IMG/VR virus record: IMGVR_UViG_3300025013_000002
Location: 1-64,000 of that record
Direction: 5' to 3' (one strand)
Source: a virus
Length of the DNA stretch: 64,000 nt
A program made the position numbers and the translations under genes. Position 1 is the first letter of the stretch, and the number at the start of each line of letters is the position of its first letter. Shown here piece after piece: positions 7,862 to 63,900 of this stretch. The notes beneath the pieces are model-generated. The model saw only the letters and a list, made by a program, of their open reading frames with translations, was not told the origin of the DNA and ran no database searches.

Positions 7862-8871
7862 GCTGCCTCCTTCCAGACCGTCATCATCCGGTCGATTTTA
7901 TTTTCGTCGTACCCAAGCTCGCCAAGGTACAAAGCCAGTTCCTCGTCGAGCGACCGGTTGGCAATTTCTTCCTGCTCTCCATTTTCCTGAACCAGAACCT
8001 GCAAAGCTTCAGGAACCTTCACCAGCTTGACGTTGGCCTGAGGCGCTGAGATGGTCTTCAACTCAGGAACGGTGCCAGTGACCTCGATCCGGTAGAAGTC
8101 GGTGTCGTTCAGAGCGGGGAATTCTTCATCCGCTCGAATTCGGATCTGAATTAGTGAAGGCAAATTTGTGGCTAGACGCTCGTACTTCGCGGTGCCTTTG
8201 TCAATGGTCAGGAGGAGAACTCCGGTATCGACCGAGGATTGAAACTCCTTGTTGATCGGGTGGTTCGTGTAGACTAGCTTGCCTAGTTCGTACCTGCTGT
8301 GAATGTCCCCTACGACCGCAAGATCGAAAGGCTCCAGCAAATGATCGACATCAATTTCCTCCTTGACGAACTGATTGTAGTTGCAGCGGAAATGCGAGAT
8401 CAGGATGTTTGTGTGCCCTTCTTGAAACTCGAACTGGACTCCTGCGGGTGGAATTTCCTTTGGCAGGTTGCAGTGGTTCATGAAGTGGAGCGAGAAACGG
8501 TCGTCAGGAAAATGAGCACTCCAATCGGTGCTTCTGTAATTAACTTGGATCGTTTTGTCCTTGCCCATGTCTAGGTGCTTGAAGGTATCCTTGCCAGGCC
8601 CAATCGTACAATGATTCCCGGAGACTAAGTAAACTTCGACCCCCGCCTCACGACACATTCTGAAGAAAATTAATGCAAGCTCCTGCTCATCTAGGTCAGG
8701 CTCACATCTCTCAAAAACATCACCTGCGACAATAAGCTCTGCGTGATGGTGAAGGCAGGCTTCAATTAAATAGTCGAAGAGGCAAAAATAGCGTTCGATT
8801 TGCCAGGTTGTAGGAGCCTCTCGCCTGAGCCAGATGTGCCAATCTGCGGTACAGATAAATTTTTTAGGCAA
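7858..8871 (-). CDS. sbcD: SbcD/Mre11/gp47-like nuclease
   Basis: 337 residues, TTG start. Motifs of the Mre11 family appear in order: CTADWHIW, VAGDVFE, LVSGNHC, ILISHFR and VVGDIHSR, giving the metal-binding Asp/His/Asn set. The partner of the SbcC-like ATPase; together they trim and resect DNA ends. The start lies within the end of an HNH endonuclease gene, which appears to have inserted just upstream. Confidence 0.93.
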   Translation of the reverse strand: MPKKFICTADWHIWLRREAPTTWQIERYFCLFDYLIEACLHHHAELIVAGDVFERCEPDLDEQELALIFFRMCREAGVEVYLVSGNHCTIGPGKDTFKHLDMGKDKTIQVNYRSTDWSAHFPDDRFSLHFMNHCNLPKEIPPAGVQFEFQEGHTNILISHFRCNYNQFVKEEIDVDHLLEPFDLAVVGDIHSRYELGKLVYTNHPINKEFQSSVDTGVLLLTIDKGTAKYERLATNLPSLIQIRIRADEEFPALNDTDFYRIEVTGTVPELKTISAPQANVKLVKVPEALQVLVQENGEQEEIANRSLDEELALYLGELGYDENKIDRMMTVWKEAA

Positions 8872-12588: not shown

Positions 12589-14601
12589 CTAGAAGTTGAT
12601 TTTGAGGGTGCGGGTGAAGCTACCCTTGACTCTGCAAAGTACGCTGCTGCGCTGCGTTGAGGAGAACCCGATTCCACTGAGTTGGTTCTCGGACTCCTCG
12701 ACCTTCATCTTGGAGCCTACGACCTCGAAGACCTTCCGGTGCGCGTTCAGTTCCTCGTTCAGGAACTCGTTGTAGAAGCCCCGCGCCTTGCCTTCGTTCA
12801 CGCACTTGTCGAGCATGAAGAAGAAGTGCTTGTTTCCTACGCCATGCCCGTCCCAGTGGTTCGGGGAGTGCATGAGGACGTTGACCTTGTGGAAGGTCTG
12901 CGTCGGGAGGCCCCATACGACCTTCGATGTCTGCGAAGAAGGCAGCGACTTGACGATCTCGAATCCGTCCTTGTGGCTGTACTTGATCTGGGCGACTTCG
13001 ACATAATCCCTGGGGTGCATCACCTTGGGGTACGCGAAGTTGTAGGTGGTCCCAGCGAACTCGATCTCGACTTCGAAACCGAAGTTGTCGCTGTTGCGCT
13101 GGGAGAACTGGTGGACCATCAGCGTATAAACGCCCTCGCGCATCTGGCGCTTGTCGGAGTAGTAAATATTCTCCGCAGGATCGGTCCTCATCCCGTCTGC
13201 GCCGTTTGCGTCCAGGTCGAGGCACCCACCATTCGGAGATAGCCTGCGGCGGTTCGAGTAGTAGATCTTGTGGCCGTTCGGCTCGATCATGTGGAAGTCG
13301 AGGTCGTCGGTATTGTTCCACGCCAGCCTGCAGCAGAGGTCGCCTTCGACCTTCCCACCAGCCTTCTTGACGCGCTCCTTGATCGAGTCCGTCATGTCGC
13401 CTGTGTACGACCACGAGAAGTTGTTCGGCCACTTGAACATGCCCTTGGCGTCAGAGTCGATGGGAGCGATCAGGCTGACCATGTTCCCGGCGTGCTTGTT
13501 CTCAAGCAGGATCTCCAACGACTCCACCTTCGGTAGAACATTGGAGATAAATTCTGCGATCCCGATTTCTTCAACTCGGTCGAAACTTTTCATGTTCTCG
13601 GGAACAGCCCCAGCCAACTCCTCGAACACATTAGTCATCCGCTGCTTGGATTCCCTGTTGGCGAACAGGATGTTGTTCACGGTGATGTCTTCCATGACCG
13701 CGTACCTGCGCTGGAGGGCAGAGGTTAACCCGAGTTCCTCGATTGTCCTCTGCGCCTTCTCGATCATGCCCTTGGTGATCAGAGCGCTGGGGCGCTTGTA
13801 GTTGCTAGGCGCCACCTTTGCCTCGAACGATCCTACAGACGGCTCCAGGTCCTTGCCTTCGGAGAGATCCACCAGCAAAGTCCCGATGACCGTGCCTCGA
13901 ATTTTGGAGACAGACTGGGGCACGCTCTTCACCCGCGACCAGCAGAAGATGTCGTGCTGCGAAGCCGGAAGCTTGGCGAATTCCTTCTTCAGCTTCAAGA
14001 AGCTCTCCACCGCGAACTTGTGTTCCTCGCCCCGGTACAGCGAATTCTGCGCGATCAGCTCCAGCACTGTGTCGATGGAATCCAGAGAGATTTCCTTGAG
14101 GCTCCTCAGGAAAACGTCCTTGGTGCTCCTGGACTCAGACAGTCTGGCGCCGATGTCGAGCCCTTTGACCACTCGGTCGGTCGGGATCTTGATGTAGAAG
14201 TGCTCCCAGGTAAGCATTTCTCCCGAATCCGTCTGCTGGAAGTTTTTGTCAACCCCGGCTACGGACTCAGGGTGGAGGAAGATGTTGCTGATTTCGCTGG
14301 ATTTAACCAGAGTGGAAAGCGCGTCCGAAACTACCTGATAGAAGCCGCCGGGCTGGGCGTCCCAGATACTGACCACTTTCCCGTCGATGATGGCAACTAC
14401 GTCGCCAACCGCTCTGATAAAGGATCGACAGCAGGTGCAATCGTGCTCCGTGCGTTCTTTGTAGATCGGATCGGTGCCTTCTGGGAAGCTGCTGAGGTAG
14501 GTCTCCCAGAGAAGATCCTTGGAAACCTCGGCGCGAAAAAGCTCGTGCTGCTTCATCACATCGAACTGCTTTTGAACCGCTACCTTGAAATCGTTGAACA
14601 T
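12589..14601 (-). CDS. Large phage protein with DUF2135-like domain
   Basis: 670 residues from the ATG at 14,601 with AGGAGG five bases upstream. Residues 1-400 show no motif I recognise except a CTCC pair near residue 50. Residues about 420-560 (CRLAWNNTDDLDFHMIEPNG, NGGCLDLDANG, VYTLMVHQFSQR) resemble the DUF2135/YfaP-type domain, a beta-rich domain with conserved D and N residues. Biochemical role unknown. It has a double-operator promoter and comes right after a small-RNA terminator, so it is a separately regulated unit with the gene at 12,188. Confidence 0.75.
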   Translation of the reverse strand: MFNDFKVAVQKQFDVMKQHELFRAEVSKDLLWETYLSSFPEGTDPIYKERTEHDCTCCRSFIRAVGDVVAIIDGKVVSIWDAQPGGFYQVVSDALSTLVKSSEISNIFLHPESVAGVDKNFQQTDSGEMLTWEHFYIKIPTDRVVKGLDIGARLSESRSTKDVFLRSLKEISLDSIDTVLELIAQNSLYRGEEHKFAVESFLKLKKEFAKLPASQHDIFCWSRVKSVPQSVSKIRGTVIGTLLVDLSEGKDLEPSVGSFEAKVAPSNYKRPSALITKGMIEKAQRTIEELGLTSALQRRYAVMEDITVNNILFANRESKQRMTNVFEELAGAVPENMKSFDRVEEIGIAEFISNVLPKVESLEILLENKHAGNMVSLIAPIDSDAKGMFKWPNNFSWSYTGDMTDSIKERVKKAGGKVEGDLCCRLAWNNTDDLDFHMIEPNGHKIYYSNRRRLSPNGGCLDLDANGADGMRTDPAENIYYSDKRQMREGVYTLMVHQFSQRNSDNFGFEVEIEFAGTTYNFAYPKVMHPRDYVEVAQIKYSHKDGFEIVKSLPSSQTSKVVWGLPTQTFHKVNVLMHSPNHWDGHGVGNKHFFFMLDKCVNEGKARGFYNEFLNEELNAHRKVFEVVGSKMKVEESENQLSGIGFSSTQRSSVLCRVKGSFTRTLKINF

Positions 14602-14639
14602 CTGATCCTCCTTTTGTTTTGTCTTCAATCCATATTTGA

Positions 14640-25697: not shown

Positions 25698-25850
25698 CTA
25701 ACCTCCAAAATTTACTCGCATCGAAGCGAGGAAGTAATCCATCCCGAACGCGCCGACCCCGAGGCTGAGCCCCGCGATCCCATAGAGGATGCAGCAGGCG
25801 ACAATCGAAGTCCCGAGGTCGTTCATGACCTTCCCGATCTTAACCAACAT
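25698..25850 (-). CDS. 50-residue membrane protein
   Basis: ATG seven bases after GGAGGGG. Residues 15-38 (IVACCILYGIAGLSLGVGAF) form one membrane helix. Ends four bases before the next ATG. Small phage membrane proteins often affect the envelope or exclusion, but nothing specific is visible. Confidence 0.65.
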   Translation of the reverse strand: MLVKIGKVMNDLGTSIVACCILYGIAGLSLGVGAFGMDYFLASMRVNFGG

Positions 25851-26067
25851 ATCCCCTCCGCGCTTCCAGAATGTGAGCCAATCCAGGACGAGCCACAGTC
25901 CCAGAATCTCCTACAGGAACCAAGATGCACTTCGGCATGACCCGCTTGAAGCCTTGAGCGTCCGTGATGACGCGAGACTTGTGCATCTGCCTCGCCAGCT
26001 TGATCTCGGCTTTGTCGTTGGAAAGTACTGAGAATCCGCAGTTCTTGCAAAAATAACTAAACTTCAT
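25840..26067 (-). CDS. Zinc-ribbon protein
   Basis: 75 residues from the ATG at 26,067, chosen for its GGAGG site and short overlap with the upstream gene. FCKNCGFSVLS at the start is one half of a zinc site; a single cysteine (PKCILVP) follows. Basic middle. Unknown role. Confidence 0.65.
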   Translation of the reverse strand: MKFSYFCKNCGFSVLSNDKAEIKLARQMHKSRVITDAQGFKRVMPKCILVPVGDSGTVARPGLAHILEARRGYVG

Positions 26068-33711: not shown

Positions 33712-34803
33712 CTATTCCGCCGCCTTCACGTTCAATAAAGGCTTGATATGGTCAATCACCCTCACGGTGACTCCCTCCTGCTTTGCCAGCACGTAATTGA
33801 TGTCCTTGTAGGCGGCGGGTGCCTCATCTAGGATCGAACGGTCGGTCGAGCAGATGATCCCGCGCATCCCGTCCTTGAACTCCTGATAATCCAGCGTCTT
33901 CTTCGCCTGATTCCTGCCCATGACCCTACCGCAGCCGTGAGACGCCGAGGAGAGATAATGAGTCTCGCCCAAGCCCTCCGTGATATAAACCCCGTCCCGC
34001 ATGTTGGCGGGGATTACGCCGAGCTGCCCAAGGTCCGCTGGAGTCGCACCTTTGCGGTGCAGGACTCCTTCAGCAGTTACAACGGCGTGATTGTGGTTCT
34101 CGTTGATGAGGTTCTTCATCAGGAGCTTGGAGACCTGAGAAATCCCAAGCACACCCAGAACCGCCTTCATCATCCTCAATCGGTTCTCCAGTGCCCACTC
34201 AAGAGCGAAATTCATGTCCTGAAGGTACGCCTGTCCAAGCTCAGATTCAAGCTGGAACATCCGGCCCTGCTTCATATACCAGCCGCCGATTGTGTGACCT
34301 ACGTTTCTGGAGCCTGAGTGGATCGTGATGCAGAGACTACCGGCTTGGTTCTCGCCCAACTCGATGAAATGATTTCCACCACCTAGCGTTCCGAGTTGAG
34401 TGCCTACTTTAGCCTGGACCTTCTGGAGTGTATTTTTGTCCAGCGCTTCGGACTTGAATTTTCTTGAGTAACTTTTCTCCGAAGCATGTGAGGAGAACCC
34501 CGTAGGGATTACCTTCAGGATGTCGTTGTAGATGCCACGCAGCGTTGTGACCTCAGCAGCGACCATCTGCGTGTCCAAGCAGCACATGCCACACCCGATG
34601 TCGTATCCGACGAAACTCGGAGATATCATCCCATCCAGGAGAGCTACCCCTCCAATCGGCAGGTCGTAACCTGCGTGGACATCAGGCATGATCGCCAGCT
34701 TCTTCAGGCAATCCAATTCCAGTACATCAAAAATCTGCTGCTGAGCGGACTGCTCAATTTCCTCCAGCGGAACCATCGAGAACAACTTGTCGAGCTTACT
34801 CAT
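33712..34803 (-). CDS. rtcB: RtcB-type RNA ligase
   Basis: 363 residues. RtcB motifs in order: MPDVHAGYDLPIG, GYDIGCGM (metal cysteine), GTLGGGNHFIEL, IHSGSRNVG, ENHNHA and SASHGCGRVMGR with the histidine that accepts GMP. RtcB joins 2',3'-cyclic phosphate and 5'-OH RNA ends. In phages it can repair tRNAs cleaved by host defence nucleases, which suits a phage that also carries a tRNA. Shorter than E. coli RtcB (about 408 residues). Confidence 0.95.
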   Translation of the reverse strand: MSKLDKLFSMVPLEEIEQSAQQQIFDVLELDCLKKLAIMPDVHAGYDLPIGGVALLDGMISPSFVGYDIGCGMCCLDTQMVAAEVTTLRGIYNDILKVIPTGFSSHASEKSYSRKFKSEALDKNTLQKVQAKVGTQLGTLGGGNHFIELGENQAGSLCITIHSGSRNVGHTIGGWYMKQGRMFQLESELGQAYLQDMNFALEWALENRLRMMKAVLGVLGISQVSKLLMKNLINENHNHAVVTAEGVLHRKGATPADLGQLGVIPANMRDGVYITEGLGETHYLSSASHGCGRVMGRNQAKKTLDYQEFKDGMRGIICSTDRSILDEAPAAYKDINYVLAKQEGVTVRVIDHIKPLLNVKAAE

Positions 34804-53097: not shown

Positions 53098-53116
53098 AAA
53101 TGTGAAGTTTCACTTT
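53098..53116. repeat. GTGA-N4-TCAC palindrome
   Basis: AAATGTGAAGTTTCACTTT; includes the TGA stop of the gene ending at 53,110. Confidence 0.78.
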
Positions 53117-53406: not shown

Positions 53407-53542
53407 TTTTGAGCCCTCCTACCGCACCATTTTCGATGAAGAAGTTGTTCGGGTACTTCAGCTCCAGGCAGTAGACGATGGTTTCCAGTGGGAATCCTCT
53501 GTTGACCAGTTGCTGCACGTAGGCTTGCCAAGGCAGTTTCAT
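53345..53542 (-). CDS. Unknown small protein
   Basis: 65 residues from the ATG at 53,542 behind AAGGAGG. KLPWQAYVQQLVNRGFPLET looks helical. Its last third overlaps the next gene by 62 bases, which is unusual here, so the stop region may be non-functional tail. Confidence 0.55.
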   Translation of the reverse strand: MKLPWQAYVQQLVNRGFPLETIVYCLELKYPNNFFIENGAVGGLKNDQNIQRPRNDLARPDRTKR

Positions 53543-53557
53543 TTTTAACCTCCTTCT

Positions 53558-53615
53558 GACCGCAGGTTTCCTCAGGTTGATTGCTTCGCAGGAGAACATG
53601 AGGAAACCTGCGGTC
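53558..53615. repeat. Large stem-loop element, copy 1
   Basis: GACCGCAGGTTTCCTCA pairs its exact complement 24 bases later. The loop (GGTTGATTGCTTCGCAGG ...) is nearly the same as in copy 3. It lies between genes and is not followed by a U-run. Confidence 0.8.
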
Positions 53616-53626
53616 CAACTATCAAG

Positions 53627-53836
53627 CTACTCAGCCCACATTACCAGATCCGAGAAAAGACCCTCGGCCTCTGGGAGTTCCCACAGCCCGTCTTTGTTCC
53701 TGGAGGCTATTATCGTGTCTCCGTCAGGTCCGCTCCTCAGTTCTCCGTAGGTTATTTGCATGTAATCCGAGAAGGGGCCTAAGTCCTCACTCATGGTCGA
53801 GGTAGCAACATTTTCACCGCGTACATAGTAATTCAT
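53627..53836 (-). CDS. Unknown small protein
   Basis: 69 residues from the ATG at 53,836 behind AAAAGGAG; longer readings cross the palindrome and another gene. Acidic, with GPFSDYMQITYGELRSGPDG. Unknown. Confidence 0.68.
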   Translation of the reverse strand: MNYYVRGENVATSTMSEDLGPFSDYMQITYGELRSGPDGDTIIASRNKDGLWELPEAEGLFSDLVMWAE

Positions 53837-53883
53837 TTTATTCTCCTTTTGGTTGATGGTGGTTGAACTCGGTCGATTCAAAT

Positions 53884-53902
53884 AAATGTGAAATTTCACT
53901 TT
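53884..53902. repeat. GTGA-N4-TCAC palindrome
   Basis: AAATGTGAAATTTCACTTT at the stop of the 21-residue peptide gene and upstream of the gene at 53,627. Confidence 0.78.
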
Positions 53903-53967
53903 TACGAAAACCTCAGTAAGATAGCCGTCGCCCAAACAACTCCGAGCCAAACTATAGGTGCCATCAT
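53902..53967 (-). CDS. 21-residue membrane peptide
   Basis: ATG overlaps the upstream stop (ATGATG); GGAGGGAC precedes. Encodes MMAPIVWLGVVWATAILLRFS, a single hydrophobic helix. Real translation is plausible but unproven. Confidence 0.45.
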   Translation of the reverse strand: MMAPIVWLGVVWATAILLRFS

Positions 53968-54260
53968 ATCGTCCCTCCGTGCTTTCGGATAATCTCCCGG
54001 ACAACTTCCAGAGGGACGTATGAATAAACGGGAGAACCTTCGTAGGTATGATAAGGAGCCAAAAGTTCTTCTGGTTTGTTAGGGAACCCAACCTCGACAT
54101 CCGAGTACAAAGCGAGCTTGAAGAAGTCCATTGTCTTAGGACAACAAGCGTGACGATCGCTTGCCTGGACACTCATCATAAACCCGTCTTTGCACACGAT
54201 CTGAGGGAATAAAACTCCCTGGGTCCTTGTGGGAAGTTTGATTTCAATTTTGGTGGACAT
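53964..54260 (-). CDS. Conserved phage protein
   Basis: 98 residues. CKDGFMMSVQASDRHACCPK, VEVGFPNKPEELL and YSYVPLEVVREIIRKHGG fit a phage family with unknown function. First gene behind the promoter at 54,348. Confidence 0.82.
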   Translation of the reverse strand: MSTKIEIKLPTRTQGVLFPQIVCKDGFMMSVQASDRHACCPKTMDFFKLALYSDVEVGFPNKPEELLAPYHTYEGSPVYSYVPLEVVREIIRKHGGTI

Positions 54261-54347
54261 TTGGATCTCCTTTGTAATTACGGGCTATTTCCGAAATGGG
54301 CGGATAGGGATGAGGGGAAAGAACTTTATAAAACCTTTGTCTTGGCG

Positions 54348-54376
54348 TTTATAGCGGGTTTGGATCTTTTCGTCAA
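54348..54376 (-). promoter_or_regulatory. Promoter at the right end of the minus-strand accessory block
   Basis: TTGACG (54,371-54,376), 17-bp spacer, TATAAA (54,348-54,353). Upstream lie AATTCACATGTGTATT and a GTGA-type palindrome (54,408), so both families meet here. Confidence 0.75.
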
Positions 54377-54407
54377 GCATTTTAATTCACATGTGTATTT
54401 AAATTGG

Positions 54408-54425
54408 AATGTGAAACCTCACTTT
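54408..54425. repeat. GTGA-N4-TCAC palindrome
   Basis: AATGTGAAACCTCACTTT, upstream of the 54.35 kb promoter. Confidence 0.7.
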
Positions 54426-54602
54426 TATGGTTTATTTGACGGGCGAATCAGGTAAACTACGCAAACTTTGCATAGCTGGTGTAAAACCTTATTAAATACG
54501 CAGGTTTAGTCAGGTTTCTAGCGGAGCTTGGATATTGAGTTATGCCTGCGGTGGATTAGGGAGGATGCAGGATCAGTCAATTTTCCAGCGAAGCTTTAAT
54601 CA

Positions 54603-54646
54603 TGAGGAAACCTGCGGTTGAATTGGGAGCTTCGCAGGTTTCCTCA
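54603..54646. repeat. Large stem-loop element, copy 2
   Basis: TGAGGAAACCTGCG and CGCAGGTTTCCTCA pair around a 16-base loop, followed by ATTTT on the plus strand. Neighbouring AGCTTCGCA/TGCGAAGCT arms overlap it. Degenerate pieces of the same words occur from 54,490. Could terminate plus-strand transcripts. Confidence 0.75.
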
Positions 54647-54689
54647 ATTTTAATGCGAAGCTGGTTGGCTTGAGGCGGACTGCGAGGTA

Positions 54690-54872
54690 TTAAAGCACTT
54701 CTTTCTCCGTGACGAAGTATTCGCGCTCGAAACCTTCGGGAGCGTTGATCTGCCATTCCTGGCCTTTGGCGTGCGCCTTTTCGCTGGAGGAAAAGAGGAA
54801 GGTTTCAACCCAGCGATCATCCGAGTAGGGCTCAAGGGTGTCTTCAATCTGCGCGAGTTCATAGACGATCAT
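54690..54872 (-). CDS. Unknown small protein
   Basis: 60 residues from the ATG at 54,872 behind AAAGGAG. LAQIEDTLEPYSDDRWVETF and a C-terminal strand pair. Conserved style but unidentified. Confidence 0.7.
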   Translation of the reverse strand: MIVYELAQIEDTLEPYSDDRWVETFLFSSSEKAHAKGQEWQINAPEGFEREYFVTEKEVL

Positions 54873-54976
54873 TTTAATTTCTCCTTTTTCTCGTTTCCCC
54901 AAGTTCCAACGCGTTTCCCTTCCTAGATCAAAAAGGATATACGCGCCGGTCCTGGGGGTTTTTAGGTAGTTCGTTT

Positions 54977-55006
54977 AGGCGCTATGTGAAATTTCACATA
55001 GCGCCT
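54977..55006. repeat. Perfect 30-bp palindrome containing the GTGA-N4-TCAC core
   Basis: The core ATGTGAAATTTCACAT is extended on both sides by AGGCGCT/AGCGCCT, so all 30 bases are symmetric. The longest perfect member of the second family. Confidence 0.85.
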
Positions 55007-55097
55007 CTCAAGGTCGAGCTACGATCCGCGCCCTGGACCTGCAGGGCACCTCTTTTGCTCCATCTAAAGACTGCGAACATCCGTTTGCAGAGTTTAG

Positions 55098-55117
55098 AAA
55101 ATGTGAAATATCACTTT
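55098..55117. repeat. GTGA-N4-TCAC palindrome
   Basis: AAATGTGAAATATCACTTTT in the non-coding region; a weaker relative AAATGTGAATTTTCATATT lies at 55,150. Confidence 0.7.
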
Positions 55118-55178
55118 TATTTGTTCCATTATGTAACACATCCTGGATGAAATGTGAATTTTCATATTTTCTAAATAG

Positions 55179-55214
55179 AGCGGGACCGGCTCGATGCTTT
55201 GGGCCGGTCCCGCT
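55179..55214. terminator. 12-bp GC-rich hairpin
   Basis: AGCGGGACCGGC/GCCGGTCCCGCT with a 12-base loop. Short T-rich tracts follow on both strands (CTTTGTT and CTATTT), so it could act on either. Confidence 0.65.
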
Positions 55215-55227
55215 TTGTTGCCTCAAA

Positions 55228-55246
55228 AATGTGAACTTCACATTTT
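55228..55246. repeat. GTGA-type palindrome, shortened spacer
   Basis: AAATGTGAACTTCACATTT, symmetric around a single central base, next to the 12-bp hairpin. Confidence 0.72.
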
Positions 55247-55679
55247 TAATGAGCTTTTCTTTAACCAGTGAACCGATTGCCTCATGCCTCGCCTTTCTTA
55301 TCAGCGACACAACTATTAGCAGGACGGTCAGTATCTGGCGTTTAAACGGCCCTTCTGTTTAGATGTATGGTAGCACCTCCCCCGCTTCTTATCTCTCGAC
55401 TATAAGGGGATATTCCGCCTTTCCAATCTGTTACCTTGTACCGTCAGGCAGACTCCCATAGTTGGGGCCTCTGTCTGCAGTCATTTGGATTGATACAAGT
55501 CAAGGATCGAACGCGCTAAATCTTGTGCTGATCCTGTCGGCAATAGGTGACAGGTTCTAAGGTTTCGTGCCCTATAGCGGGACACTACTTTCTCCGTTTG
55601 GCATTTTGCTAGAATGCCTGTACAGGTGTCAAGCTGTACACGTCATGCCTCAATAGTCTCAATGAGCGGGGAAATGATA

Positions 55680-55740
55680 CAAGGGTCTTGCTCTGTAGCT
55701 TCTAGATCCTACACCTAGAAGCTACAGAGCAAGACCCTTG
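55680..55740. repeat. Perfect 26-bp inverted repeat
   Basis: Twenty-six bases beginning CAAGGGTCTTGC repeat in inverted form after nine bases. It lies 25 bases beyond the stop of the gene ending at 55,766, so on RNA it would form one of the strongest hairpins in the window. A competing smaller hairpin (AAGGCCCTTGCC/GGCAAGGGTCTT) overlaps its left side on the minus strand. Confidence 0.85.
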
Positions 55741-55765
55741 CCGGTTAGGGCAAGGGCCTTTGGCG

Positions 55766-56200
55766 CTAGGCAGAGGCACCGGCCTTTTTAGCCTCTTTCA
55801 TGGCTTTTTCCAGAGCTGCGAAAAGCCCCTCATTCCCTGCACATTTCGTCATGACGGCCTTAACGTAGCTGTCAACGTTGAACTCTTTGGTGCAGTTGGA
55901 GTTATCACCGCTGTTCCTGATGAAGTCATACAGCCTCTTGAGGAAGCGCCCACACTCGCCTTTGTCCTGAATAGCCTCGGTGTATTTCTCGGGAACGTCG
56001 CGGCCAGCCTGCAGCATGGCGTTGTGTACCGTGTGAACGTAGCCGGTTGCCTTTTCCGGCACGCCGAAGTGCGTTTCGATGGTGGAGATGGTATCCATCA
56101 TGCGGGTCTGTTGCGAGGCGTAGGCTTTGCTCTCTGCGTCAACGGTTTTCAGAATGGCGGTTCTAGCTTTGATACCCATGGACTCGATTTGCTTTTTCAT
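55766..56200 (-). CDS. Unknown helical protein, leftward gene at the switch
   Basis: 144 residues from the ATG at 56,200. Largely helical (IKARTAILKTVDAESKAYAS; ALEKAMKEAKKAGASA). The ribosome site is weak (GGGGTAT) and an 80-base leader with small hairpins separates it from its promoter, so translation may be regulated. Flanking hairpin and sequence style differ from the accessory genes. Function unknown. Confidence 0.7.
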   Translation of the reverse strand: MKKQIESMGIKARTAILKTVDAESKAYASQQTRMMDTISTIETHFGVPEKATGYVHTVHNAMLQAGRDVPEKYTEAIQDKGECGRFLKRLYDFIRNSGDNSNCTKEFNVDSYVKAVMTKCAGNEGLFAALEKAMKEAKKAGASA

Positions 56201-56284
56201 GATATACCCCTTTGGCCTATGGCCGGTTGTGGTGCAAGGCACCGTGTATGCTTCCCAGGTGAGCCGTTCGTTCATGTTGATACA

Positions 56285-56313
56285 GTTATAACAGCTACCT
56301 TGTTTCAAGTCAA
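56285..56313 (-). promoter_or_regulatory. Leftward promoter at the strand switch
   Basis: TTGACT (56,308-56,313), 17-bp spacer, TATAAC (56,285-56,290). No palindrome of either family overlaps it, unlike most other promoters here. Confidence 0.75.
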
Positions 56314-56392
56314 CACTATTTTTCACATTTATTTTAAAATAATTATTCTTGTGTAAAACAAGGTACTTAGGCTGTTAATTCATATTAGGTAG

Positions 56393-56500
56393 CTCCCCTC
56401 GGTCGATCCCTACGACCTCCCCTCGGTCGATCCCTACGACCTCCCCTCGGTCGATCCCTACGACCTCCCCTCGGTCGATCCCTACGACCTCCCCTCGGTC
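56393..56500. repeat. 24-bp tandem repeat, 4.5 copies, at the strand switch
   Basis: The unit CTCCCCTCGGTCGATCCC plus TACGAC is repeated four times without a mismatch and is followed by 12 more bases, then a G-rich tract. It lies between the leftward promoter (56,285) and the rightward promoter (56,596). Identical tandem units of this length are typical of iteron origins or partition sites, but no initiator gene is next to it. Confidence 0.92.
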
Positions 56501-56572
56501 ACTGGGGGCGGGGTGAAAGTTTTAATGAGAGCCAGGCTCCCTTACCCATTCACACACACGCTACGAGTTAAA

Positions 56573-56586
56573 ATTCAGATGTACAT
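56573..56586. repeat. ATTCA-N4-TGAAT half-site
   Basis: ATTCAGATGTACAT, one good half, ten bases before the -35 of the rightward promoter, as at 58.2 kb. Confidence 0.55.
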
Positions 56587-56595
56587 ACTTTTATC

Positions 56596-56624
56596 TTGAC
56601 ACGTAGCGAGTAAAGTGTTAAGGT
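56596..56624 (+). promoter_or_regulatory. Rightward promoter at the strand switch
   Basis: TTGACA (56,596-56,601), 17-bp spacer, TAAGGT (56,619-56,624). Drives the gene at 56,655. Confidence 0.72.
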
Positions 56625-56654
56625 TCAATACAGGCAAAACAAAGGAGAAATAAA

Positions 56655-56981
56655 ATGGAACGAGTAAAAATTGGAGATAAATTTCACGCTTGGACAGTGA
56701 TAGCAGGCCCCATCATGAAGGGCAAAGGTCTCAAGTATTGGACATGCCAATGTGCTTGTGGGACTCAGAAGGAGATCCAGCAGTACTCCCTACTGAATGA
56801 CCGCACCCATAGTTGTGGGTGCCAGAAGGTTTTCTCCGAGGAAACTAGAAAGCTCCTGTCCGAACTCAGGAAACAGCGGCCCGCCCCAAGAGCTAAGGGG
56901 TTCACCCAGACTGAAGAGACGAGGGCGAAGATAAGCCAGGGTGCCAAACAAAGGTGGGAGGAGAGGAAGGCGCAGCCATGA
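56655..56981 (+). CDS. Homing-endonuclease-associated DNA-binding protein
   Basis: 108 residues behind AAAGGAG. VKIGDKFHAWTVIAG and YWTCQCACGTQKE ... SCGCQK form a zinc-type domain that often precedes HNH or AP2 domains in phage proteins. The C-terminus TEETRAKISQGAKQRWEE resembles a NUMOD DNA-binding helix. No nuclease centre is present, so it may be a remnant or a free DNA-binding protein. Confidence 0.7.
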   Translation: MERVKIGDKFHAWTVIAGPIMKGKGLKYWTCQCACGTQKEIQQYSLLNDRTHSCGCQKVFSEETRKLLSELRKQRPAPRAKGFTQTEETRAKISQGAKQRWEERKAQP

Positions 56982-57155
56982 CCCTACCCTACCTGCTTCG
57001 CACTGTTACCAGGGGTTCTACTCAAATTAGCCCACAGGGTTCCTCAATCCAGCCTGCTTCGCACTGATCCTGACCGGTACCTGTGGTCCAACTAGACGAG
57101 CCTGTGGCTGCACCGGGATAAACAAAATACCAGCGCCAACCCAAGAGGAGTTAAA

Positions 57156-57536
57156 ATGAAGACGATCATACGGAATCACCCAGCAACTTCCCAGGAAGCT
57201 ATCCAGTTCACCCAGCACCTCCTCCAGTCCTTCCCCATCACCACCAGAAGGCAGATCACCATCGAGTTCAGGTCTACTAACTCTATTGGGAGGGGGAATT
57301 GGGGCATGGCGCACGATTACAAATTCAACAACACGCTCTTTCTGGAACTGGCCCTTGGGACTTCCAAGGAACGCAGAGATCTCCAGGATCTCCTCCACAC
57401 AATTGCCCACGAGTACTGCCACGCGCTCCAATACGACCAGGAGAAGCCTGCATCCTGCACTGAGGCGGACCTCTTCGGAGACAAAGAGGTGCCCAAGTTT
57501 CTGGAGGAGAACCTGCGGATGAAAAAGGCTGCTTAA
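57156..57536 (+). CDS. Zinc metalloprotease-like protein (HExxH)
   Basis: 126 residues behind AAGAGGAG. LLHTIAHEYCHALQYD carries HExxH and a downstream EADLFGD supplies a likely third ligand. SprT-like or minigluzincin fold; whether it cuts proteins is unknown. The 175 bases upstream hold two copies of CCTGCTTCGCACTG and no gene. Confidence 0.8.
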   Translation: MKTIIRNHPATSQEAIQFTQHLLQSFPITTRRQITIEFRSTNSIGRGNWGMAHDYKFNNTLFLELALGTSKERRDLQDLLHTIAHEYCHALQYDQEKPASCTEADLFGDKEVPKFLEENLRMKKAA

Positions 57537-57555
57537 AATTTAACAGGAGGAACAA

Positions 57556-57735
57556 ATGACCAAAATTTACTACGAGATCGACATCACCAAGGCACCGGTA
57601 GGACCGCCTGTGCGCTTATTTAGGGAAGGCTTCGATACGCGCCGTCTGAATGAAGAGCGCCTGGAGGACTACTACCGGTACATTGAGGAGTTCAAGAGGC
57701 AGCGGGAGTTAGCCCGGTCCAAACCCAGCAGCTAG
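57556..57735 (+). CDS. 59-residue charged protein
   Basis: ATG behind CAGGAGG. EERLEDYYRYIEEFKRQREL is a charged helix. Last gene before a 560-base spacer. Unknown. Confidence 0.65.
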   Translation: MTKIYYEIDITKAPVGPPVRLFREGFDTRRLNEERLEDYYRYIEEFKRQRELARSKPSS

Positions 57736-57770
57736 AGCACCTCTCCCCTATTGTACCTGGGGTAATGCTC

Positions 57771-57829
57771 CATATATGATACGTTAAGCCTAAAAATATG
57801 ACTTAATGATTCATATTTGATACGTTAAG
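57771..57829 (+). repeat. 18-bp direct repeat, two copies
   Basis: CATATATGATACGTTAAG and CATATTTGATACGTTAAG differ at one base and lie 41 bp apart start to start. They may be protein-binding sites. Confidence 0.75.
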
Positions 57830-57980
57830 AGGGCAAAAGTAATGTGGGATTTGAACCGGAGGTTGGATTTTGGGATTGCTAAAATTTTGGGGATGTGGGT
57901 TCAGAAAGGATATACTTTGGGGAAATGCAAAAATGTCAACTAATGGTTTACAAATTTGTGGATTTTCAATTTGTTACCTA

Positions 57981-58044
57981 GCGAACCACAGGTTTCCTCA
58001 GGTGGATCGCTTCGCGGGAGAACATGAGGAAACCTGTGGTTCGC
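57981..58044. repeat. Large stem-loop element, copy 3
   Basis: GCGAACCACAGGTTTCCTCA pairs perfectly over 20 bp. The 24-base loop matches that of copy 1 except at a few positions. Compensating changes in the stem (CCGCAGG here is CCACAGG, and its partner changes too) show the pairing is maintained. Confidence 0.85.
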
Positions 58045-58180
58045 CTAAGCCGTGCTCTTGTGGTCCCAGTAACGTTAAGCAAAATTTACAAAACCTACCT
58101 GAAATGTAAATTTTATTTTACGATAGCCACTTTAAAATTCACGCAGCGAAGCGAAGTGCATTCACATCTGAATTTTTCTC

Positions 58181-63897: not shown

Positions 63898-63900
63898 ATC

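Follow-up and report, generated by a model that had tools for sequence, protein, structure and literature searches.

The REP/BIME sequences of enterobacteria are intergenic quasi-palindromes with hundreds of copies and a RAYT/Y1 transposase, and the early mRNA of phage T7 carries similar RNase III hairpins repeated at the gene junctions of the early operon. Clade-specific repeats have also been described in mycobacteriophages. The ESAS of Cluster K are imperfect 17-bp inverted repeats with a spacer, whose function is unknown (PMC3203893), while the 17-bp dyad repeats of Cluster O, which are short (7-3-7), number more than 30 across the genome, roughly a third of them within genes (PMC4351075). 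The repeats reported here look like elements of the ESAS/Cluster O dyad kind that belong to neither family. Judging from sequence, they make up a family of intergenic quasi-palindromes that is specific to one lineage and has been kept vertically, a new family of the phage hairpin-repeat type already described.

The window, i.e. the whole stretch of 64,000 nucleotides that was analyzed (genome G000), is part of a viral contig of 82,561 bases, and the repeats sit at its divergence point. On the left, the minus strand encodes replication proteins (family A DNA polymerase, DnaB-like helicase, SMC/SbcC-like); on the right, the plus strand encodes terminase, portal, and head proteins. The repeat unit is ~58 nt long, with arms of 15-17 nt (CCRCAGGTTTCCTCA), a spacer of 23-25 nt, and a central mini-hairpin GCTTCGC or GCTCCGC.

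Our scans covered 2.9 million viral contigs and 85,000 prokaryote genomes. Those of the viral contigs with three forms of the whole element, one of which allowed any middle of the arm, return a single clade of uncultured phages: G001, G002, G004, G003, and G005. Since G001 is 99.9% the same as the window and G002 and G004 are one virus, the four distinct genomes compared are G000, G002, G003, and G005; G004 lacks coverage of places A and B. When only the 15-nt arm was searched in the viral contigs, single matches also occurred elsewhere, one per contig, which we read as probable chance matches. A host REP family was sought in the prokaryote genomes, where 11 single matches, none of them palindromic, look like chance. 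No DNA match to 53.5-58.1 kb was found in 50,697 phage records, and a search with the gene at 55766 returned only clade contigs already found. In these collections the element is restricted to a little-known uncultured clade of groundwater-type phages. Searching the whole contig and related phages, as an earlier note on this DNA had proposed, thus located it in one phage clade and at four matching places. The copies of the window, with the orthologues of the first, are the following:

53558..53615, minus strand: element A, a 20-pair quasi-perfect hairpin of the CCGCAGG flavor
25822-25880 in G002 and 8068-8124 in G003: orthologues of element A, of which G005 has a single arm only
54563..54619 (about), minus strand: element Bi, an intact arm TGAGGAAACCTGCGG and a degenerate arm ATGCAGGATCAGTCA
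54630..54688 (about), minus strand: element Bii, an intact arm CGCAGGTTTCCTCA and an arm TGAGGCGGACTGCG, their stem having a 4x4 internal loop
54603..54646, no strand: junction palindrome of 14 bp (copy 2 of the earlier note), made of the facing intact arms of Bi and Bii
57031..57090, plus strand: element C, a degenerate copy CCACAGGGTTCCTCA ... TGACCGGTACCTGTGG between a Zn-finger/NUMOD3 gene and an SprT-like gene
57981..58044, plus strand: element D, a 22-pair hairpin of the CCACAGG flavor, ~140 bp upstream of a TTGACA promoter-like site

Exact CAGGTTTCCTCA arms occur six times, at 53563(+), 53599(-), 54603(-), 54635(+), 57989(+), and 58025(-), all within 53558-58044, and the 82,561-base contig has no other exact match. 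The window contains five inverted-repeat centers with 14-bp perfect arms and a loop of at most 40. Such long perfect stems are beyond chance, because 40 random first-order sequences gave none. Fuzzy arms number 18 where 7.8 are expected, a count reached in 0 of 100 shuffles. A (20 pairs) and D (22 pairs) have DNA folding z values of about -6 to -9; they share a loop with a central GCTTCGC and differ by one compensated G:C to A:T stem change, which bears out the earlier statement that these two copies (its first and third) have a common loop and a stem change compensated on both arms; they are the same hairpin. The note had further described stems sharing one arm at three sites. The six exact arms agree with this, but its copy 2 has the opposite arm order and a different loop, and alignment with the relatives resolves it into two adjacent degenerate elements with their intact arms facing each other. 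Its count of three copies holds for A and D, but missed the degenerate fourth element, C (57031-57090), as well as the conservation of four sites in the relatives.

Element A occupies the gap on the upstream side of the leftward gene whose start is at 53541, and its central heptamer is inverted relative to transcription. Bi has the same architecture, with GCGAAGC as its center on the + strand, and its type of degenerate arm is found likewise in G002, G003, and G005. The type of internal loop seen in Bii recurs in Bii of G002 and in D of G005. The Bi/Bii junction hairpin is the predicted minimum-energy fold of region B in G000, G002, and G003, not in G005. Bi folds poorly in all genomes, as does C of G000, whose orthologue in G002/G004 is a perfect palindrome. 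The 17-nt 5' arm of D (AACCACAGGTTTCCTCA) is invariant across the four relatives and is the sole long invariant stretch within 57.0-58.1 kb. A candidate fifth copy at 63987-64047 (TTTCCTCGA/TCGAGGAAA) was rejected as chance: it lies inside the tyrosine-integrase frame and has no heptamer, and G002 and G003 do not conserve its 5' arm.

Each of the four distinct genomes has elements or their remnants at the same four gaps, A and B in the leftward operon and C and D in the rightward one, so that two places flank the divergent control region on either side. C always separates the Zn-finger/NUMOD3 gene from the SprT-like gene, behind which D follows. Gene content around A and between A and B varies by genome, with the place of the element retained. 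Every scored site, in each of the four genomes, is a gap between co-directional genes.

The architecture was defined on an alignment of 19 copies. All 19 have a spacer of 23-25 nt and keep the outer (CxCAG/CTGxG) and inner (CCTCA/TGAGG) helices; columns without variation occur in the heptamer and in both helices, namely C, C, A in the outer one and C, T, C, A with G, A in the inner one. The three to four pairs in the middle differ among copies and often form an internal loop. The pairs of the named hairpin are formed in 81.5% of the cells, compared with 31-39% for slid versions. Two-sided changes affect 20 cells versus 10.3 when shuffled, which was reached in 1 of 500 shuffles that ignore relatedness; the number of pairs having such changes is not above shuffles. 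Left copies are mostly of the CCGCAGG flavor and right ones CCACAGG, and G005 has both on the left. Read along the transcribed direction, the heptamer is GCTTCGC or GCTCCGC (GCTCCAC once) in 16 of the 19 copies, the exceptions being A of G000, A of G002, and D of G005. Its common variants on the opposite strand, GCGAAGC and GCGGAGC, both fall in the d(GCGNAGC) series, a class of very stable mini-hairpins.

In G000, A and D resemble each other (0.88) more than either resembles its orthologues (0.85 and 0.81 at most), and the loop shows this best (0.88, versus at most 0.80 to orthologues). In G002, one T-to-C change recurs in the two arms of A and in the B arms that face each other, and in G003 a 69-bp tandem contains three B arms. 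These three observations point to copying or correction inside the genome, and the near-perfect arms and shared loop are best explained by copying between sites of one genome, to which template-switch correction of the palindrome may perhaps contribute. Correction alone can yield compensated changes, hence covariation is no proof of selection. The retention of places, spacing, helices, and heptamer amid diverging flanks (e.g. the invariant 17-nt arm of D) speaks for it.

Like ESAS, the elements are specific to a phage clade, intergenic, conserved by gene position, and have a left arm nearer to the consensus (PMC3203893). However, ESAS are located directly upstream of a 13-bp start-associated sequence, and their spacer varies in length, whereas the elements described here are of unrelated sequence, lack a start tag, and occupy four places on both divergent sides with a fixed spacer and heptamer. 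By eye, no tag of the 13-bp start-associated type is common to the downstream starts; A is near an RBS, and B, C, and D are not start-proximal in like manner. With the Cluster O dyads they share a clade-specific palindrome that is partly intergenic, for which recombination between copies was proposed and whose function is unknown (PMC4351075), but here the stem is of 14-22 bp, the loop is structured, and the 4-5 elements are all in gene gaps. With the RNase III sites of T7 they have in common that similar hairpins recur at gene junctions, the sequences themselves being unrelated, and in our phages the elements are on both divergent operons. The locus adds to the cases in which the control region of a phage has hairpin repeats that are specific to a clade and conserved in position. 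Here both sides of the divergence point are occupied, and there are enough relatives to define the architecture.

Several other repeats and structures occur nearby. A second palindrome family, AATTCACATCTGAA / TTCACTTCTGAA, is found at 58161, 58191, 58272, and ~18 more sites of the contig (~21 in total), several of which coincide with TTGACA promoter-like sites; it looks like a dispersed, stoperator-like operator of a phage repressor. A third repeated palindrome, TGTGAAnnTTCAC, occurs upstream of leftward genes at 53101, 53887, 54985, 55153, and other positions. At 56393-56500 there is an iteron-like 24-bp tandem repeat (CCTCCCCTCGGTCGATCCCTACGA, 4.5 copies); G005 has a near-identical unit, G002 a different unit with the same core CCCTCGGTC, and G003 lacks the core. 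Finally, a near-perfect hairpin of 27 pairs at 55680-55740 adjoins a conserved non-coding stretch (about 55.1-55.76 kb) with 44-71% invariant columns among the four relatives. This hairpin is a possible structured RNA without an Rfam family: at the gathering threshold the Rfam covariance models matched nothing but a tRNA, and permissive matches occurred only at the 55680 hairpin.

As to function, the earlier note had raised a common RNA processing or packaging signal. Packaging is unlikely: ~10 kb separate the sites from the terminase genes, and no copy is found in the packaging genes. RNA processing is possible and is our leading reading: we tentatively favor that the elements act as RNA hairpins at the gene junctions of the two divergent operons. 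They would be transcribed as hairpins in both the leftward and the rightward transcripts, where they could set how the polycistronic mRNA is processed or how stable it is, in the manner of the RNase III-type sites of other phages, a host enzyme presumably acting on them. We lean this way because every copy lies in a gap whose flanking genes run in one direction, most copies are oriented with transcription, and none has a terminator tail. However, the orientation bias is also expected from an element directed by the replication fork. Selection for pairing in RNA should leave G.U changes on the transcript strand. The G.U pairs at D and at A of G003 are all sense (10, with 0 antisense), those at B are mostly antisense, and the totals are 16 sense versus 15 antisense. 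Selection on the RNA strand, as a conclusion from G.U asymmetry, was therefore rejected; such balanced totals give no general RNA-strand signature, and the elements may act as RNA or as DNA.

There are two serious rivals to action as RNA. One of them, which we find rather doubtful, is that of a REP/MITE-like palindrome, selfish or without function, maintained in gene gaps by recombination, gene conversion, and palindrome correction. It would account for the degenerate arms, the tandem multiplication in G003, the A-D similarity inside a genome, the flipped centers in A and in D of G005, and the differences among relatives in the genes around A and between A and B. Against it, the four places are kept although their flanks have diverged, the architecture is conserved, and the spacing is fixed; there is no transposase, no empty site, and no copy among the host genomes or other phages scanned. 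The dispersed palindromic element of the earlier note is indeed a multi-copy intergenic quasi-palindrome, homogenized between sites and in tandem in one relative, but its mobility finds no support. Place B, with two facing elements, is BIME-like; unlike REP/BIME, the family lacks a RAYT/Y1 transposase and hundreds of copies, and host copies were not found. The RAYT/Y1_Tnp profile (PF01797) is absent from G000 and its four relatives and matched the control genomes, and the comparison of empty sites proposed as a check of mobility found none among G000, G002, G003, and G005, all four places having at least remnants. Hence, a REP-like mobile nature is unsupported, and the REP/BIME and MITE features that we looked for are absent.

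The other serious rival, which we regard as unlikely, is a replication or control element acting in DNA, as a cruciform, a single-strand hairpin, or a pair of protein half-sites, placed symmetrically on both sides of an origin or the divergent promoter region. The half-sites would be CRCAGnnnnCCTCA, about four helical turns apart, and the mini-hairpin would form on the d(GCGNAGC) loop strand. The constant spacer of 23-25 nt, the central A to G change that preserves the GNA loop (GCGAAGC, GCGGAGC), and the G.U pairs without overall strand bias fit this. So do a GC-skew minimum at 57,460 and the iteron-like repeats at 56393-56500, although a divergent gene arrangement can by itself produce such a minimum, the iterons are 0.5-2.9 kb from the elements, and G003 keeps the four element places without the iteron core. 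Also in its favor, the midpoints of A-D and of B-C agree within about 40-60 bp in all four genomes, while distances vary, a coincidence to which we give little weight because the relatives are not independent.

It is quite improbable that the elements are a mirror-symmetric, direction-dependent signal pair for the divergent arms, bound by a phage protein of this clade, be it as origin-flanking single-strand hairpins tipped by d(GCGNAGC) or as a put/nut-like RNA signal common to both operons. Terminators or bidirectional attenuators of early operons are very improbable: the stems are long, contain GC, and lie in intergenic gaps, but no copy is followed by a U-tract on the gene strand, as already noted from the sequence, terminator-like matches in the region (6, versus 8.7 expected) are not above shuffles, the only one at the copies, at 54625 (+), being within chance, and a stronger terminator-like hairpin is elsewhere, at 55174-55219.

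Because both operons carry equivalent copies, one deletion or one binding assay would be enough to separate an RNA role, a replication role, and no role, a question that equally concerns the mycobacteriophage repeats.

The genes of the phage led to some additional observations. A profile search for a single-subunit RNA polymerase (PF00940) gave no match, nor did its positive control. The Zn-finger/NUMOD3 protein (56655-56981, 108 aa), found in all relatives, has a Cys-rich segment and a NUMOD3 motif, apparently without a nuclease domain, and may be a DNA-binding regulator that descends from a homing endonuclease. In G003 and G005, the gene of a 329-aa protein weakly matching Radical SAM (L065 12674-13663) is inserted downstream of D; the window lacks it. 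The tyrosine integrase gene (PF00589; minus strand, about window position 63,900 to L007 position 1213), opposite to the surrounding genes, suggests that the phage is temperate. A 679-aa phrog_1735 protein (12589-14628) has 54-55% identity to proteins of the Caulobacter phage phiCbK type, in a phage otherwise without close known relatives. Finally, 33712-34803 is a phage-borne RtcB RNA ligase gene (PF01139, E 7e-76).
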